From IMG/VR virus record IMGVR_UViG_3300035145_002528, positions 1-24,718 of that record: a DNA stretch of 24,718 nucleotides, one strand, 5' to 3'. Below, piece after piece: positions 3,753 to 23,914 of this stretch. This DNA is from a virus. Both the position numbers and the translations under genes were made by a program. The stretch's first letter is position 1. The number at the start of each line of letters is the position of its first letter. Below the pieces are notes generated by a model. It saw only the letters and a list, made by a program, of their open reading frames with translations, had not been told where the DNA came from and searched no databases.

Positions 3753-6023
3753 TCAGGATGTAAATGAAACCTTTTGTCTAGGCCATGCTTTACCTGAAGT
3801 TGGTCTTCGTTTAAATGTTGTTTGTTCTGAACCACCAGCAATATATTTACCGGTTCCCATACGTACACCCCATGGAATATGTACTCTTAAAGCTGGTGTT
3901 CCATATAATTCTGTTAAATCAGCTCCACCATTTTGATAATCGTTATCAGAAATACGATTAACATTACTTGATGAATATAATTTAGATGATGCTACATTTC
4001 CTGCTGGATAAATTGCTGGAGGATTATTTTTACTTCCTGCAACATTAGAAAAATCAATTCCTTCCATACCTTCACCAATTAAATTTTCTTTTGCTGATTG
4101 TACCATTATCTCTTTGAGTTTAGCAATACTTGGATATACTCCTCGTTCAGTAAAGTAATGTTCTAAAAATACTGATGCGCAACCAGCTGCAACTGGTGCA
4201 GCACAACTTGTTCCACTAAAATATCCCCATTTACCATCTTGGAAAGTAGTTGTAGGATATGATGTCCAAGTATAAGCGCCATAAGCAGCAAAATCAATCA
4301 TTGGACCACGACTACTATAATCGTCCATTAATCTATTAACATCGTCTTGTTGACATGCTGCAATCGTGAATTGATTATCTCCACCCTCTGCTTCAATTCT
4401 AAGTGGATAGTATGTTGCTTGAGCGCCTTGCGTTGAATTAGTAAATTGATTTCTGCCTTCACTATCTAAAGTATTTGTTACATAACTTACACCGCTGTCT
4501 ACTCTTACTGTAGTATTAAATCTTGGGTCTGTTGGACTTACAGCAACATGAGCATTATTACCTGCGCTTTTAAAGTGATAAATTCCATTATAACTATTGA
4601 ATTGGCTCATTACTGTATCAAATGTAGAATAACGAGTTTGGTCTGGTATAGAAATCATCCATTTATCAGTGCTGTCTGCTGGGTCTTGGATAACTCTTGG
4701 AATAATTAAGTTATCTGCAAATGCTCTAAAATCGCCTTGCCAAGAGTTTGTGTCTTTTACACATGAAATAGTACCAGTCATGCTTGGATGGAAATCACAA
4801 ACATAATCATATGTTGTTGAGGCATCAGGCATTGTAAATGTAACTGTGCTTGTTCCCTGTCCAGTAACTCCTGCAACATTACTACCACCTTGTCTGATAT
4901 ACAATGGATGTCCGCCAGAAGCTTGGTTATCAATAATCACAGTATCGCCTGGATTACAAGTAATTGCTCTATTATTAACGCCGTTGCTTGCTCCAGTTCC
5001 TTCGTAAATTCTATCTTCACCAGTAACTACGTATGCACTTGAACCTGAAGCAGTCATTGTAATATTCCAAGTTGCTGCTTGGACATCACCACGATTTATT
5101 GTTGTTGAATTACCATCTTCGTCATAAGCTACAATTTGATTAATGTCATCGATGATATAAAATTTTTCGTGGTCAACACCAGAATATCCCCATGCTCCAG
5201 TTACGACTGTTGCATTACGAACACCTGTTACTGAATTTACTGCTTTAGAAATATGCCATGAAAGTGCAGCGTAATATGCATTAGTTACACCATCACTTAG
5301 ATACATAACTCTTAATGAAGATTTTTTACCCCAACCACAATGTTTACCACCTGCTGCACTTAATACTCCAATCGCATGAGATGAAAACCAGTCTGAACTA
5401 GGATTTGTAACTTGGTTATTACGAGCTGAAGTTAATGCTCCACTAACTATTGACCAATCCATAGGAACAAATCTCGAAGTATTAACATCATCAATTTCTG
5501 AAAAGTCTGGATGGTCTTCGTGACCAGCATTACCCGATGCAGGAGTACCTGCTTCAATAGCAATAATATCTACATATTCACCAAGAAAATTACTTTTAAC
5601 TGTTTCGTTCATATTGAAATCGTTAAAATAACCCATTGGAGGATTACCATTTCCTGCAGCTGCAGCGTCAAACTCACTAGAAAAATACATATTCATACCA
5701 GTATAGTTTGCGCCATCATCTAAACTAGGAGAAGATGGTGTATATCTTGTTAAATATTGAACTGTACCAGAAGATGGAAGTTCATATCTTGGAGTTGATG
5801 ATGGATATGATACTAAATCAATAACTGGTCTTTCAGGTCCACATTCAATAACTTTATCGCTTTCATTTAATTGAGCTGCTTCTTCATCAGTCAATCTCAT
5901 ACAAATAATAGCATCCCACAGGTCAAAGTTATTGACCACTTCCATACCAGCTGCTTCATTTGCTAAGAATAAAGCTTCGTCTGTTCCTGGTTGAAGGATT
6001 ACGTTATGAATGCGTTTAGCCAT
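3753..6023 (-). CDS. Subtilisin-like (S8) protease with inserted cupredoxin domain
   Basis: The product is 756 residues. Residues about 5-65 resemble an I9-type propeptide (LTDEEAAQLNESDKVIE). The S8 fold follows. H216 sits in SSHAIGV, the oxyanion asparagine N489 in SAGNN, and the serine S606 in GTSCAAP. The position normally held by the catalytic aspartate reads IAIEAG, so E157 appears to replace it. Between the S1-pocket strand (about residue 275) and N489, residues about 314-422 form a cupredoxin-like domain. It has candidate type 1 copper ligands H362, C409, H412 and M415, with the C-x2-H-x2-M spacing of amicyanin. The gene lies in the baseplate operon between a fibre gene and gp8, with a 3-base gap to the fibre gene. 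It is probably virion-bound and may cleave host surface or phage proteins; the substrate is unknown. The S8 assignment is firm, the copper binding is inferred. Confidence 0.85.
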   Translation of the reverse strand: MAKRIHNVILQPGTDEALFLANEAAGMEVVNNFDLWDAIICMRLTDEEAAQLNESDKVIECGPERPVIDLVSYPSSTPRYELPSSGTVQYLTRYTPSSPSLDDGANYTGMNMYFSSEFDAAAAGNGNPPMGYFNDFNMNETVKSNFLGEYVDIIAIEAGTPASGNAGHEDHPDFSEIDDVNTSRFVPMDWSIVSGALTSARNNQVTNPSSDWFSSHAIGVLSAAGGKHCGWGKKSSLRVMYLSDGVTNAYYAALSWHISKAVNSVTGVRNATVVTGAWGYSGVDHEKFYIIDDINQIVAYDEDGNSTTINRGDVQAATWNITMTASGSSAYVVTGEDRIYEGTGASNGVNNRAITCNPGDTVIIDNQASGGHPLYIRQGGSNVAGVTGQGTSTVTFTMPDASTTYDYVCDFHPSMTGTISCVKDTNSWQGDFRAFADNLIIPRVIQDPADSTDKWMISIPDQTRYSTFDTVMSQFNSYNGIYHFKSAGNNAHVAVSPTDPRFNTTVRVDSGVSYVTNTLDSEGRNQFTNSTQGAQATYYPLRIEAEGGDNQFTIAACQQDDVNRLMDDYSSRGPMIDFAAYGAYTWTSYPTTTFQDGKWGYFSGTSCAAPVAAGCASVFLEHYFTERGVYPSIAKLKEIMVQSAKENLIGEGMEGIDFSNVAGSKNNPPAIYPAGNVASSKLYSSSNVNRISDNDYQNGGADLTELYGTPALRVHIPWGVRMGTGKYIAGGSEQTTFKRRPTSGKAWPRQKVSFTS

Positions 6024-11732: not shown

Positions 11733-12149
11733 TTATCTTATCCTTTCTAATATTAAATCAAGTGTGATTGGTCTGTCAACATTCTTGATATAAAACTGTA
11801 TGAATACGTTAACTGTGTTATCGTCATAACTACTTGATGCTGTTACATTAATTAATTCAGCTCTTGTTTCATAAGTGTTTATTGTATCTCTACATCTTGA
11901 TTCTATAACCTTTAAAACACCAGGCGTAATATTTTCAAATAATAATCCTCGTACACCACCACCTATAAATGGTTGCATGAGTCTTTCGCCTGGGTCTGTT
12001 AAAATTAAATTTTTAATACTTTGTTTTACTGCGTCTTCATCTTTCAATAATGCAATATCTTTTGATATAGGACTAACTCTAAGGTCCTTATGAAAGTCAC
12101 TATATAAATTCGGTTTTTTACTTACCGGTGTTTTTGCAATTATTGTCAT
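11733..12149 (-). CDS. 25: Baseplate wedge subunit gp25
   Basis: The product is 138 residues, matching the T4 gp25 family (132 residues), the sheath-initiating wedge protein related to P2 gpW and T6SS TssE. The family core is visible as AVKQSIKNLILTDPGERLMQPFIGG at about residues 41-65, followed by GVRGLLFENITPG. The C-terminus VDRPITLDLILERIR is also typical. The ATG overlaps the stop codon of the preceding gene as ATGA, indicating translational coupling. No sign of truncation. Confidence 0.93.
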   Translation of the reverse strand: MTIIAKTPVSKKPNLYSDFHKDLRVSPISKDIALLKDEDAVKQSIKNLILTDPGERLMQPFIGGGVRGLLFENITPGVLKVIESRCRDTINTYETRAELINVTASSSYDDNTVNVFIQFYIKNVDRPITLDLILERIR

Positions 12150-13774
12150 CGTAGTATTTCTCTAATGTCTAAATGAATATGATTATCATATATAATTACG
12201 CCTTGGAAACCTGATTGTTTAGCATTTTTTGTAAATAATTCAGTCCAATCAGCAATTTCATTTAGTTTACCAACATTCCTTTCTGCATCTGATAAACTAT
12301 TAAATTTTGACTTAAAACTATCGTCTACCTTAATATCTATAACAAGTCCACTCAAGTGAGGATTATCATTTTCCTTTTTTAGTATTTCTTGGTTATATTG
12401 TTGGCTTACCCAACCATTAGTTATAATAAAGGTATTACCGTATATTTCTTGTAATCTCTTCAGATAAACTTTAACATCTAAATCTAAATGTGTATACGCT
12501 GGTAAACCAATACCTTTTTCTTCGTCGAATACATCACCCTCAAGTTTAAAAGTACCATCAGAACCTTTTATCACATTCATGCATGGAGGTAAGTTCTTAT
12601 AATCTTCAGCTGTGATTTCTTCAACATCAACAGTATCATATCCTGGAATGGTTTTTGCATTATTTCCTTCATTCCATAAAGTATTTAGGCTATTTATGTC
12701 GTTCTGCCTTTTTTCTCTTGAAAATCTTATCGCTCCGTTACGAATTGCTGTAGAAGTATTTTGATTTCCTATTGTTTGTAATCTCTTAATAACTCTTTGA
12801 TATCTGTTTCCGTAATCATCTAATGGATTCTTAATTTCATTAACAAGTGCTTCAACATTACTTGCAAGAGCACAAAAACGTGCAACCAAGAATTGCATTG
12901 TTGCTAAATCCATTTGCTCAAATAAACCAAAGGCGTAATCCATAAAACCTTTGAGTTTATTTTTCATTTTCTTTTGTTGTTCTTCTGTGAGCTCATTACA
13001 CATGCGCTCTTTACGAGTCATTATATACTTTGTATGAGATTTGTCAATACCTACAACTAAATCTCCTATTTGTTCCGAAATATTAAAGTTTTCAATTGCT
13101 GCCATTACCTTTTCATATATCTTAACAACAGAATCTATAATCTTTTCTTGGATTTCTTTCATTAATTTTTTGACGACTTTTTCTTCTAATATTTCAAGTG
13201 GATTCATACCTTCGTATTTACCAAGTAATGCTTGGAATTTAGCGTATGCTGCAAGAGCGTCATTTATGATTCCATCTATTTCGCCAATTAAATCATAAAA
13301 TGCATCTATTTGATTAAATAGATTATTCATACTATTACAGAAGCCACCTAAAATACTTTCGTAAATATCACCTTCGTAATATCTGTTTAAATTAGAAAGT
13401 AGCACATCTGGTGTTTGATTAATGAGACCGTTTGGTGTATAATTATAGGACTGCATAAAGTCAGCCATTTCAAGCTGTGTAACGTTTCCACGATTCCATC
13501 TATTATCTAAGAACGGATAATTTGTAGCATCATAATCTCGAAGTGAACCATTAACATAATCAACACTTTGGCCAAATGCATCACCAAATTTAGTAATCAT
13601 ATTTTTAATTGGATTATTATTTGTTTCTGCTACAATGTTATCTGCAAGTTCTTGAGCAAATACATCAATTTGATTTACTGTATATGTTCCATCGGGTTTT
13701 GTTGTAGGACCAATATTTGTTATCTGCTGATTGAGATATGTTTGACTTCTTCTGTCTACGCAACTACTAGCCAT
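12146..13774 (-). CDS. Baseplate-associated protein with C-terminal M15-type peptidase domain
   Basis: The product is 542 residues. Residues 1-400 are mostly helical, with long amphipathic segments (about 190-320), and I recognise no named domain there. The last 120 residues resemble the M15 DD-/LD-carboxypeptidase family. The motif NPHLSGLVID matches SxHxxGxAxD, giving candidate zinc ligands H473 and D480, and HIHLDIR at the end supplies H534 as the third ligand. The preceding segment YLKRLQEIYGNTFIITNGWVS is the usual M15 N-terminal helix and strand. Such enzymes cut peptide cross-links of peptidoglycan. The gene starts in a TAATG overlap with gp5 and ends in an ATGA overlap with gp25, so it is made with the hub proteins. 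A role in local cell wall opening is inferred; activity is untested. Confidence 0.72.
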   Translation of the reverse strand: MASSCVDRRSQTYLNQQITNIGPTTKPDGTYTVNQIDVFAQELADNIVAETNNNPIKNMITKFGDAFGQSVDYVNGSLRDYDATNYPFLDNRWNRGNVTQLEMADFMQSYNYTPNGLINQTPDVLLSNLNRYYEGDIYESILGGFCNSMNNLFNQIDAFYDLIGEIDGIINDALAAYAKFQALLGKYEGMNPLEILEEKVVKKLMKEIQEKIIDSVVKIYEKVMAAIENFNISEQIGDLVVGIDKSHTKYIMTRKERMCNELTEEQQKKMKNKLKGFMDYAFGLFEQMDLATMQFLVARFCALASNVEALVNEIKNPLDDYGNRYQRVIKRLQTIGNQNTSTAIRNGAIRFSREKRQNDINSLNTLWNEGNNAKTIPGYDTVDVEEITAEDYKNLPPCMNVIKGSDGTFKLEGDVFDEEKGIGLPAYTHLDLDVKVYLKRLQEIYGNTFIITNGWVSQQYNQEILKKENDNPHLSGLVIDIKVDDSFKSKFNSLSDAERNVGKLNEIADWTELFTKNAKQSGFQGVIIYDNHIHLDIREILR

Positions 13775-20143: not shown

Positions 20144-20992
20144 ATGTCATTTAGAATCAGTGATTTTAAAACAACGATGAGCCGATTTGGTGGTCCTGCC
20201 CGTCCTAATCTTTTTGAAGTTATTTTATTTAATGTAGAACCAAACTCTGATATGGACCCAAGGAGCATATCTTTCTTTTGTATTGCAGTAAACTTTCCAG
20301 GTATTACAGTTGAAAATGGACAGATGGTAAATGTTGCACAACTACCTACATCATTCCCATTACGAATGTCACCAGCACCACTTACTGCTACATTCTTGCT
20401 AGACAGTAATCATAACGTACTTTCATTTTTCCACAATTGGTTACAAAGAGTTATGAACTTTAGTACTAAGGGTGGAACATTTGGTGCAATTGATACATCA
20501 GATGGAGATGCATTTAAAGACGGACAACTTCCATACGAGCTCGGATACAAAGATGATTATGCTTGTCGTATGGTTATTAAACATTTTAGCACAGAATCTG
20601 AAACAAAAGAAGGTAGTAATTCTAAATATTATGAAACAGTTTTAGATAATGTTTATCCTTTTACAATAAGTGATGTTTCTTTAGATTGGTCCAGCAACGA
20701 CCAATATGCTACTGTAAGTGTAACATTTGCTTACGACCAAATACATTATTCATCAGACAGAATTGGAACACCCATACAAAGAAAAGGTGGTGGTTTACTC
20801 GATACACTTTCAGACCTTGCAAACTTTATTGATGTAACTAAACAAACAATAGGACAAGGTAAAATTACAAGTATTCAAGATGCTATTAACAGATTACAAC
20901 GAGTTAGAAGTTCATACGATAATCTTTCAGATTTCTTTGATGAACCTAAAGCATCGACAAAAACACAACCGGTTAAAGACCCTGGTACTTAA
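20144..20992 (+). CDS. Tail tube initiator, gp54-like (tube-fold protein)
   Basis: The product is 282 residues; T4 gp54 has 320. The segment PLTATFLLDSNHNVLSFFHNW (about residues 85-105) parallels DPLVISFRMDSEACNYRAMQDW of T4 gp54. VYPFTISDVSLDWSSNDQY and ATVSVTFAYDQIHY (about 180-215) parallel the ISVSAPELSYDGDNQ...FDVTFAY end of the T4 protein. This tube fold is shared with gp19 and gp48. gp54 caps gp48 and receives the first gp19 ring. The C-terminal about 60 residues are helical. A GAGG site lies 8 bases before the ATG. A gp19-like alternative is less likely because of the extra C-terminal region and placement with gp26 and gp29. Confidence 0.6.
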   Translation: MSFRISDFKTTMSRFGGPARPNLFEVILFNVEPNSDMDPRSISFFCIAVNFPGITVENGQMVNVAQLPTSFPLRMSPAPLTATFLLDSNHNVLSFFHNWLQRVMNFSTKGGTFGAIDTSDGDAFKDGQLPYELGYKDDYACRMVIKHFSTESETKEGSNSKYYETVLDNVYPFTISDVSLDWSSNDQYATVSVTFAYDQIHYSSDRIGTPIQRKGGGLLDTLSDLANFIDVTKQTIGQGKITSIQDAINRLQRVRSSYDNLSDFFDEPKASTKTQPVKDPGT

Positions 20993-21021: not shown

Positions 21022-21723
21022 ATGTCATTACCAAAAATTGATTTACCGTTAGGGGAATTAGTACTTCCTTCGACAGGTGAAAAAGTAAAATATAGGCCTT
21101 TTACTGTAAAAGAAGAAAAGATTCTTTTAGTAGGCCAACAAAGTGACGACCCAGAATTAGAAATATTGTCGTCCAAACAAGTTATTGATAATTGTTTAAT
21201 TGATAAAGATGTTGATGAACTTCCAATGTTTGATTTAGAGTACGTGTTACTTTATCTCAGAGCAAGAAGCGTTAACAACGTTATTAAATTTACAATTAAA
21301 GACCAAGATACTGATGAAGATGTTGAATTAGAGATGGACATTGATAATGTAGTATTAGAAAGAAAAGAAGGTCATACAAACGAAATAGAAATTAATGATG
21401 AATATAAGTTGTTTTTAAGATATCCAACTATTTCTGAATTTCAAAAATTAGTTTCTGCTGATAAAAATGACCCATTGCTTGATTATATTATGTTAGTATC
21501 TTGTTTAGATTATATTGCTTCTGAAGATGAAGTACATTATTTTAAAGAATATACTGAAGAACAAATTAATGAATTTATGGATAGTTTATCTGGCAGTGTT
21601 ATTAAATCAATTACAGAGTTTTTCTCAACAATGCCAAGATTAAAACATGAAATAAAATATACTAATAGTGAGGGTAATGAAAAAACGTTTGTCGTGGAGG
21701 GCATGCGAAGTTTTTTTACCTAA
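21022..21723 (+). CDS. 26: Baseplate hub/tail assembly protein gp26
   Basis: The product is 233 residues (T4 gp26 is 208). The N-terminus MSLPKIDLPLGELVLPSTGEK, then YRPFTVKEEKILLVGQQS, is the signature of the T4 baseplate protein family (gp26). The rest is acidic and helical, with DMDIDNV-like strands mid-protein. By position directly before the tape-measure gene it corresponds to the tail assembly chaperone of other long-tailed phages. A good AGGAG site lies 9 bases before the ATG. The last codons lie on a run of seven T with a stop two codons later, the layout of a -1 frameshift site; the shifted product would be 294 residues and include the gp51-like tail. Confidence 0.85.
   Translation: MSLPKIDLPLGELVLPSTGEKVKYRPFTVKEEKILLVGQQSDDPELEILSSKQVIDNCLIDKDVDELPMFDLEYVLLYLRARSVNNVIKFTIKDQDTDEDVELEMDIDNVVLERKEGHTNEIEINDEYKLFLRYPTISEFQKLVSADKNDPLLDYIMLVSCLDYIASEDEVHYFKEYTEEQINEFMDSLSGSVIKSITEFFSTMPRLKHEIKYTNSEGNEKTFVVEGMRSFFT
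21696..21717 (+). promoter_or_regulatory. Programmed -1 frameshift signal at the end of gp26
   Basis: The heptamer T TTT TTT occupies 21711-21717, with the zero-frame codons TTT TTT exactly in place for tandem slippage. A Shine-Dalgarno-like GGAGGG at 21696-21701 lies 9 bases upstream, close to the spacing that stimulates frameshifting in E. coli dnaX. The zero-frame stop follows at 21721. The minus-one frame stays open for 62 codons to a stop at 21903-21905. The GGAGGG has no suitably placed start codon in the minus-one frame, which argues that it acts on the ribosome rather than as an initiation site. Confidence 0.7.
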
Positions 21724-21905
21724 CGCTGAGTCACATTAATCTGCAAAATTATTATGACATAAATTTTGCAATGGCCCAGCATCACAAATGGAGTATAACG
21801 GACATTGAAAATATGATACCTTTTGAACGAGATATATATTTTCAATTATTAATTAACCATATTAGAGAACAAAACGAGAAAGCAGAACAAGCTAGAAACG
21901 GATAA
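21717..21905 (+). CDS. gp51-like tail assembly extension (minus-one frame of gp26)
   Basis: This is the 62-codon segment reached by the frameshift. It begins YLTLSHINLQNYYDINF and contains HHKWSITDIENMIPFERDI near its middle, the pattern seen in the C-terminal part of tail assembly chaperone fusions and in the small gp51-type proteins of T4-like phages. T4 gene 51 also directly follows gene 26. An internal ATG at 21771 could give a separate 44-residue product, but no ribosome site precedes it and the frame is already open and protein-like for 18 codons upstream, so fusion is preferred. It ends 5 bases before the tape-measure ATG. Confidence 0.68.
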   Translation, partial: YLTLSHINLQNYYDINFAMAQHHKWSITDIENMIPFERDIYFQLLINHIREQNEKAEQARNG

Positions 21906-21910
21906 AATAA

Positions 21911-23914
21911 ATGGCAGAACTATCTAAAGATACTCAAGCAATTATAGCACGCCTCAAACGAGAAGGCGAATTAAATCGTTTTGCATCTGAAAAATATTCT
22001 ATAAAGGAAGTACGTAACGACCTTTCTAAATTCCAAGGAACGTTTGATGCTATTCGCGAAGCTATATCTGGAGTTGCTCACAATACTGACGAACAATCCG
22101 AATATTATAAACAAAAAGCAGCTAGAGACCTCGAACTTGAAAATTTAACAGAAAAAGAAAAAGAAGAATATAAGAAAAATCAAGCTGATATGCTTAAGAG
22201 AGAACAAACTCTCGCAAAGAAAGACCTTGAAGATAAAGAAAAAGCAAGAAAAGAAAAAGAAAAAAATGATTTAAAAATATTTGGTAAAGATGGTATTTTA
22301 ATTCAAGGTATTAAAAAGGCATTTAAGTTTGCAATGTTTGCTGCTATTGCGTCTATTGGTTATTCGTTTATAACAGGATTTTTAGAAGGAGCCTTCCCAG
22401 AATATTTTGGTGAAAAAGGTAAATTAATAGATTTACCAAATACTGTATTTGATATATTTGAAAATATATCTGTAATATTCAAAAGTATCGATTACGACCA
22501 GTTAAAAGCAAATCTAGCATATATTTCAAGTCCAAAGTTTTTAGAAACCATGACATATGCTGTGGGTACTGTAGCTGCAGTCAAAGTAGCACAGCCTGTT
22601 GTTGAAACAGTAGGTGAAGTTATTACAACGGGTGCTTTAATTAAAGCTCTTACTCCTACTAAAAATGATGTTTCAACAGCAGGTGACCAAACTGGCAGCG
22701 GTGGTAAAAGCAGAAAATTGGGTGTTAGACTTGGTATAGCTGGTTTAATATTTGGTCTTGTTGAATTTGCACTACCAGCATTTACTAGAATGTTCCAAGA
22801 AGATAATGAGTTTACACCAGAAGGTCTTTCAAAAGTTCCTATACAACTTACAAACCCTGGCACAAATACCGCAGGTCAAATTGCATCTGCAGCTTCTCTC
22901 GGTGCTGTATTTGCTCTTGGTGGACCAGTAGCAGGTGTTATAGCTGGATTAGCTGCATTTATGGTTTTAAAAGCTGTAGATGCTGCTGAACATAATAAAA
23001 ATGCAGACCATTTTTCAAATGCTTATGAAGAAGTTTTAACTAACGAAAGTAGCGAAGTTGCTATTTTAAAAGGTAAACTAGCAAGAGCTGAACGGTTACG
23101 AGATACGTTAAAATTAACTGACGACCAAATGGAGCAACTAGACAATAATATTTTAGCTATAAAAGAAGCTATTGCAATAGCAGAAAAGAACGCAAAAGAA
23201 GCAGCATTAGCAGCTTATAAAGAAGATTTAGATAGATTTGATACAATTAAAAATAGGCGCGGTAGTTATATTGATGCTGATGGGAATTTTTCACCTGCTG
23301 TTATTGCAGCATTAGAAGCAGATTTAATCCAAATGTCTGGCGGCCATTATACACAAAAGTCACTTCAGATGGGTGTTGAAGCTTTAATTCGACAAAATTC
23401 AGACCCAAATTCTGCTAATTATAATAACGTATTTGAATTAATTGCTGAATTGCAAGAAAAAGACACTGCTGCACTTGCAACTATAGCAAACCAAATACGC
23501 AATCAAGCCGCTTCAGATGAAATGCTTAAAGCATTTTTAGGACCGGAGGCTGCAGCAACATTAAATTCTAAATTGCAGTTTAGAGGTGGAACCAAAGGGT
23601 TTAGAAATTTCGGCAATGGAACTATTGCAATGCTTCATGGAGAAGAAGCAATTATTCCTAGAGCAAGTTTAGAAGGTCAAATACTCGAAGGATTAAGAAG
23701 TGGTTCTACAATAGGAGCAATGACCGACAGAATTGCTATGGCTATGAGCTCAGGCGGTAGTAATGCACCTATAATTCTTAATAATGTCAATAATTCAACT
23801 AACCCAGTAACAGTTCAATCATCAACAGGTGGAGCAAGAGTAGCTAATACACGTATCACTGGCGGCATGGGCGGTGGTGGTAGTTACATTGACATGCCTG
23901 GTTTAGTCACATAA
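21911..23914 (+). CDS. 29: Tail tape measure / baseplate hub protein, gp29-like
   Basis: The product is 667 residues (T4 gp29 is 590). The N-terminal 125 residues are strongly charged and coiled-coil-like, dense in Lys and Glu at about 75-120. Three hydrophobic segments follow at about 136-160, 275-300 and 322-355, and a second charged helix at about 380-430. The C-terminus has the tape-measure ending NFGNGTIAMLHGEEAIIPRAS near residues 570-595, then a Gly- and Asn-rich tail. Tape measures set tail length inside the tube and may help DNA cross the membrane. Placement after the chaperone-type gp26/gp51 genes fits. The stop codon overlaps the A-run of the terminator that faces the other way. 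Confidence 0.82.
   Translation: MAELSKDTQAIIARLKREGELNRFASEKYSIKEVRNDLSKFQGTFDAIREAISGVAHNTDEQSEYYKQKAARDLELENLTEKEKEEYKKNQADMLKREQTLAKKDLEDKEKARKEKEKNDLKIFGKDGILIQGIKKAFKFAMFAAIASIGYSFITGFLEGAFPEYFGEKGKLIDLPNTVFDIFENISVIFKSIDYDQLKANLAYISSPKFLETMTYAVGTVAAVKVAQPVVETVGEVITTGALIKALTPTKNDVSTAGDQTGSGGKSRKLGVRLGIAGLIFGLVEFALPAFTRMFQEDNEFTPEGLSKVPIQLTNPGTNTAGQIASAASLGAVFALGGPVAGVIAGLAAFMVLKAVDAAEHNKNADHFSNAYEEVLTNESSEVAILKGKLARAERLRDTLKLTDDQMEQLDNNILAIKEAIAIAEKNAKEAALAAYKEDLDRFDTIKNRRGSYIDADGNFSPAVIAALEADLIQMSGGHYTQKSLQMGVEALIRQNSDPNSANYNNVFELIAELQEKDTAALATIANQIRNQAASDEMLKAFLGPEAAATLNSKLQFRGGTKGFRNFGNGTIAMLHGEEAIIPRASLEGQILEGLRSGSTIGAMTDRIAMAMSSGGSNAPIILNNVNNSTNPVTVQSSTGGARVANTRITGGMGGGGSYIDMPGLVT

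Follow-up and report, generated by a model that had tools for sequence, protein, structure and literature searches.

The stretch of viral DNA analyzed here, referred to as the window, comprises all 24,718 nucleotides of IMG/VR record IMGVR_UViG_3300035145_002528. A gene encoding a protein of the T4 gp26 family lies directly 3′ of a tail tube-like gene, identified by both PHROG and Pfam profiles, and is overlapped at its end by a second reading frame in the −1 register. The short and C-terminal parts are termed G (TAC-N) and T (TAC-C), respectively, and the relevant features are as follows.

20144–20992, plus strand: tail tube-like gene, upstream context (PHROG 45 "tail tube", E 1.9e-34; Pfam Phage_TTP_2, E 9e-14)
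21022–21723, plus strand: G (TAC-N) gene, 233 residues, gp26-like (Pfam T4_baseplate PF12322, E 4e-53; PHROG 150, E 2.5e-57 over positions 5–233 of 282)
21696–21701, plus strand: Shine-Dalgarno-like GGAGGG, 9 nt (21702–21710) before the heptamer, read directly
21711–21717, plus strand: slippery heptamer T_TTT_TTT in exact −1 register, with the register checked and the run conserved in relatives
21721–21723, plus strand: zero-frame stop TAA ending the short product, 3 nt past the heptamer, read directly
21725–21733, plus strand: 5′ arm of a downstream stem, GCTGAGTCA, from pairing and covariation in 40 relatives
21772–21780, plus strand: 3′ arm of the same stem, TGGCCCAGC, on the same evidence, with a 38-nt loop between the arms
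21717–21905, plus strand: T (TAC-C) region in the −1 frame, 62 codons (21717–21902) and TAA (21903–21905) (PHROG 634 "baseplate hub assembly catalyst", E 5e-27; C-terminal end of PHROG 150, E 5e-5; codon-position pattern; scan for starts)
21911–23914, plus strand: next gene, 667 residues, presumed from its position to encode the tape measure

In the zero frame, the 3′ end of the G gene reads GAG GGC ATG CGA AGT TTT TTT ACC TAA. An earlier, sequence-only reading of this DNA had placed T TTT TTT in slippage register, GGAGGG 9 bases upstream, the zero-frame stop 3 bases beyond the heptamer and a −1 frame open for 62 codons, and each of these was confirmed by direct inspection. The 5-nt gap that it gave between the −1 frame stop and the next ATG (21911) was also correct; its naming of the following gene as the tape measure is a presumption from position, and Pfam and PHROG profile searches with the 667-residue product returned no family match. 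Translation through the heptamer would yield a predicted fusion of 232 + 62 = 294 residues (34.6 kDa), the short form being 27.1 kDa. The main genes of the window hold 41 in-frame XXXYYYZ heptamers in 7835 codons; the sole TTTTTTY among them is that at 21711–21717, and the anatomy of the site is far beyond chance expectation.

G scores 180.6 bits with the PF12322 profile, above its curated cut-off of 24.5. The −1 frame matched the "gp51" family PHROG 634 and also positions 240–277 of PHROG 150, the family whose preceding positions are matched by G; thus, a known family already holds both parts in one chain. An AlphaFold2 model, which covers G only, had a pLDDT of 88.9. Its best matches in the PDB by Z score were 3fgx (8.3) and 2ob9, the tail assembly chaperone of HK97 (7.4, residues 1–84, over 83 residues), with the next match at 5.5, and the Foldseek E value of 2.0 was not significant. 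A sequence-profile search of the PDB gave no match. On the basis of this model, the predicted fold of G leans towards the chaperone fold.

To this locus were added 80 near relatives from IMG/VR (59–81% identity to the window), 80 cyanophage-type loci, 16 isolates and nine further loci, from which a set of 122 non-redundant relatives (<85% identical) was derived. All 80 of the IMG/VR relatives have a −1 frame tail and, immediately ahead of the stop, six or seven consecutive T. The sequence-only reading had called for the junction to be aligned in related phages, and in the non-redundant set T_TTT_TT(T/C) was found in register in 118/122, with the frame offset kept. Counting the window, 78 of 81 near relatives have this heptamer 10 nt ahead of the stop, and three have G_TTT_TTT; of 80 cyanophage-type relatives, 78 also have it at 10 nt and two at 13 nt. 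The four exceptions in the non-redundant set are one G_TTT_TTT lineage and three Ackermannviridae, whose run is shorter and non-canonical. The G_TTT_TTT loci (L037, L047 and L049) form a single lineage within the window's group, and theirs is a weaker slippery site than T_TTT_TTT.

The codon that precedes the two Phe codons ends in T in 118/118 cases, as compared with 66.4 expected from codon usage, although the amino acid encoded may be S, N, D, T, A or G. The log10 probability of an all-T third base is about −30, a figure to be read with the sequences not being fully independent. Given that the third base is held across six amino acids, selection appears to act on the RNA rather than on the amino acid.

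The −1 layout with T_TTT_TT(T/C) extends over Kyanoviridae, Emdodecavirus, Menderavirus, Ionavirus and, within Straboviridae, VS2 and Aeh1. Among the isolates, the canonical run was present in 13/16, and the remaining three combine the −1 layout with another run. In the Ackermannviridae loci (L094, L095 and L098), G is likewise followed by T in the −1 frame and CTTTTT or CTTTTC replaces the canonical heptamer, such that slippage may work differently there. When used as queries for relatives, PhiW-14 and Kuja matched themselves only, and Aeh1 returned seven loci, itself included.

Comparison of the relatives shows that the −1 frame itself is under protein-coding selection. Mismatch rates at codon positions 1, 2 and 3 were 0.33, 0.21 and 0.47, and synonymous codon differences numbered 454 in the −1 frame versus 155 and 64 in the other two frames. 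The proposal that the locus is a programmed −1 frameshift pair of the G/GT type is thereby supported, insofar as heptamer, frame offset and −1 frame coding are all conserved among relatives.

Sequences that may assist slippage were sought on both sides of the heptamer. Among the near relatives, 40/40 carry a Shine-Dalgarno core word within the 18 nt that precede the slippery codons, as do 56/63 of the cyanophage-type loci. Compared with synonymous recodings, anti-Shine-Dalgarno pairing is modestly strengthened in both groups (mean z −1.4 and −1.2, respectively). This signal is in part a by-product of conserved Glu-Gly codons. Downstream, an RNA stem absent from the sequence-only reading begins 7 nt past the heptamer and consists of 9 bp closing the 38-nt loop. 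Across 40 relatives, 93.6% of cells in the alignment of this stem are paired, and pairing falls to 26–43% if the partner is shifted by 1–3 columns. Column pair 21/68 covaries via UA, AU, UG and GC, and the same stem was recovered unaided by RNAalifold. In the window, 8 of the 9 pairs are formed, with one A·C mismatch.

The stability of the downstream RNA was compared with that of 300 recodings that keep the T protein, with a stretch inside G as control. In the window's group the mean z was −3.9, with 40/40 values negative and −3.2 for the window itself; the corresponding means were −2.5 for the cyanophage type (61/63 negative) and −2.0 for the others, as against −0.3 to −0.6 for the control stretch. 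Single-sequence folds of many cyanophage-type loci gave compact hairpins at a similar distance, not the long-loop stem.

These data can be explained by the following model, which we regard as highly probable on sequence grounds: one gene would give short and long tail assembly chaperones through programmed −1 frameshifting on T_TTT_TTT. Most ribosomes would read 21022–21723 to produce the short form of 233 residues (G, TAC-N). A minority would be held between GGAGGG, paired with the ribosome, and the downstream RNA stem, would slip back one base on T_TTT_TTT and miss the TAA, and would add the 62 residues of the −1 frame to produce the 294-residue long form (GT, TAC-NC). By analogy with G and GT of lambda, the short form may coat the tape-measure protein and the tail of the long form may recruit tail-tube subunits. 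The three-part signal and its conservation, the coding in the −1 frame and the homologies are observed directly in the alignments and profile matches, and from them we infer the slippage itself, its efficiency and the chaperone function.

A different origin for the T product would be a separate small gene, as in the "gp51" entries of public cyanophage records, with its own start or with re-initiation at an overlapping stop. In 73/122 relatives, an ATG or GTG does occur between positions −13 and +18 relative to the stop, and in some it overlaps the stop, such that re-initiation there could add a separate T product. However, in the window a −1 frame start is first reached 50 nt beyond the stop, within the conserved core. 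Between the opening of the −1 frame and a point 18 nt beyond the stop, ATG, GTG and TTG are all absent from 45/122 relatives, and only 3/122 combine a −1 frame start with a Shine-Dalgarno word. The pattern that the sequence-only reading had set against frameshifting, namely unrelated frames, independent ribosome sites and no heptamer, is therefore not that of these phages. An independent start also leaves the invariant in-register heptamer and the stem unexplained; it was rejected for the window and is unlikely as a general mechanism, and overall we consider a separate T gene very improbable. Given the scarcity of starts and Shine-Dalgarno words, the separate small "gp51" genes of cyanophages are most likely partial; in many genomes of these phages they probably represent the latter half of a fusion. 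In S-CAM1 (L083, 2215–2398) the T region is unannotated, and in S-PM2, P-SSM2 and syn9 (L087, L088 and L089) it is annotated as a separate "gp51" gene; both the gap and the "gp51" calls are probable annotation errors.

Slippage could alternatively occur during transcription, with RNA polymerase producing a mixed mRNA pool on the T run, which in the window is seven T long. This is unlikely because most non-redundant relatives have six T only (TTTTTTC in 79/118, including every cyanophage-type locus); moreover, conservation tracks the codon register, and the Shine-Dalgarno-like element and stem lie at ribosomal spacing. We give transcriptional slippage even less credence than a separate gene. 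That the window is a metagenome contig raises the further prospect of a single gene broken by a sequencing or assembly error, but the layout recurs in the 80 other IMG/VR loci and in isolates, whether with the canonical run or, in three of them, with a different one. An error was rejected on this account, and its probability is negligible. Programmed ribosomal frameshifting is thus the favored reading of the locus.

The sequence-only reading had further suggested that T4 genes 26 and 51 derive from, or equal, such a pair. The homology stands; the equality does not. T4 genes 26 and 51 are divergently transcribed. T4 gp26 is a PF12322 protein (E 9e-64) consisting of G only, and gp51 matches PF12322 over residues 1–201 (E 4e-52) and continues in frame into a T tail; the two genes are paralogues. 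A frameshift pair would have 26 and 51 adjacent and co-directional, with T in the −1 frame of gene 26. No slippery run is present at the end of T4 gene 26, and the −1 frame there runs into gene 25, with no T frame behind. The notion that T4 gp51 equals the T tail is ruled out by its full G domain; it is the "gp51" annotated in cyanophages that consists of the T tail only. In RB43 (L099, 2501–3794) the T4-type pair stands in tandem, 51 then 26, on the same strand with an 8-nt overlap, whereas the T4 pair is divergent. T4 gp51 is needed for assembly and is absent from the particle (PMC3004832).

Searches of whole records found one PF12322 copy each in six frameshift phages (S-CAM1, phiM12, VS2, Aeh1, HTVC008M and PhiW-14) and two copies each in five T4-type phages (T4, Aeromonas 31, KARL-1, SFHK24 and RB43). 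In a tree, gp26 and gp51 form one group each and are jointly split from all frameshift G genes at 97/93, on long branches and with a union of gp51 only or gp26 only with VS2/Aeh1 not rejected. Given that VS2 and Aeh1, which like T4 belong to Straboviridae, keep the frameshift layout, the change to two genes probably took place within that family. In the T4 group, these two products are encoded by a pair of paralogues, gene 26 for the short form and gene 51 for the long form, which is fused in frame.

A 2022 study by Vladimirov, Gautam and Davidson reportedly deals in its abstract with T4 genes 26 and 51 by name, and with frameshifting in several further groups of T4-like phages. PMC12846349 cites that study (Virology 566:9–15) for poly-T signals of frameshifting in T4-like TAC-N genes, and PMC10885494 cites it for T4-like phages with one short and one fused long gene instead. 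As represented in these citing papers, both the frameshift arrangement in T4-like phages and its two-gene replacement in T4 are already published, and the earlier description of frameshifting at a gp26/gp51-like junction as little described has to be withdrawn. A 2016 review by Atkins and others describes the G-T frameshift as widely conserved "except T4", and U_UUU_UUU as a weaker slippery site than A_AAA_AAG in Escherichia coli (PMC5009743). Relative to the TAC-N/TAC-NC genes of the 2022 study, as far as they are described in the citing papers, the window provides a new uncultured member, a conserved downstream stem and synonymous-codon tests. The present analysis adds the covarying stem, the recoding tests, the contrast between one and two copies, and a broad sample. 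Of these, the conserved and putatively stimulatory stem is the main addition, and this RNA part may be hitherto undescribed.

As in lambda G/GT (Xu, Hendrix & Duda 2004), the predicted −1 shift falls close to the 3′ end of the gene for the short chaperone, immediately 5′ of the presumed tape measure, with a short major and a long minor form; unlike lambda, the window has the PF12322 family and another slippery run. In Vandenendeviridae and Andersonviridae, TAC-N also ends with a poly-T run that serves for a −1 frameshift, but these phages are not T4-like and their run, GTTTTT, is shorter (PMC12846349). T4 genes 26 and 51 share with the window a homologous G domain and, in gp51, the T tail, and differ from it in being two divergent paralogues.

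The value of these results lies in confirmation, wider sampling and cleaner annotation. Across a large sample from the environment, they confirm that T4-like phages other than those of the T4 group probably use the ancient G/GT frameshift, which makes T4 probably a derived exception in which recoding was swapped for gene duplication. The downstream stem is a candidate control of the short:long ratio. It is about an even call whether the frameshift signal is modular, with the heptamer kept across Kyanoviridae, Straboviridae and relatives, the stimulatory RNA rebuilt by lineage, and the signal dropped in the T4 group through gene duplication and in-frame fusion.

Two other genes of the window, both on the minus strand, were also noted. 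That at 3753–6023, within a T4-like baseplate/tail cluster, encodes a subtilase (Peptidase_S8, E 4e-10) with a putative cupredoxin-like insertion, judged by eye, at about residues 320–420. The product of 12146–13774 had no Pfam match, and its C-terminal part resembles, by eye, a VanY-like DD-peptidase.
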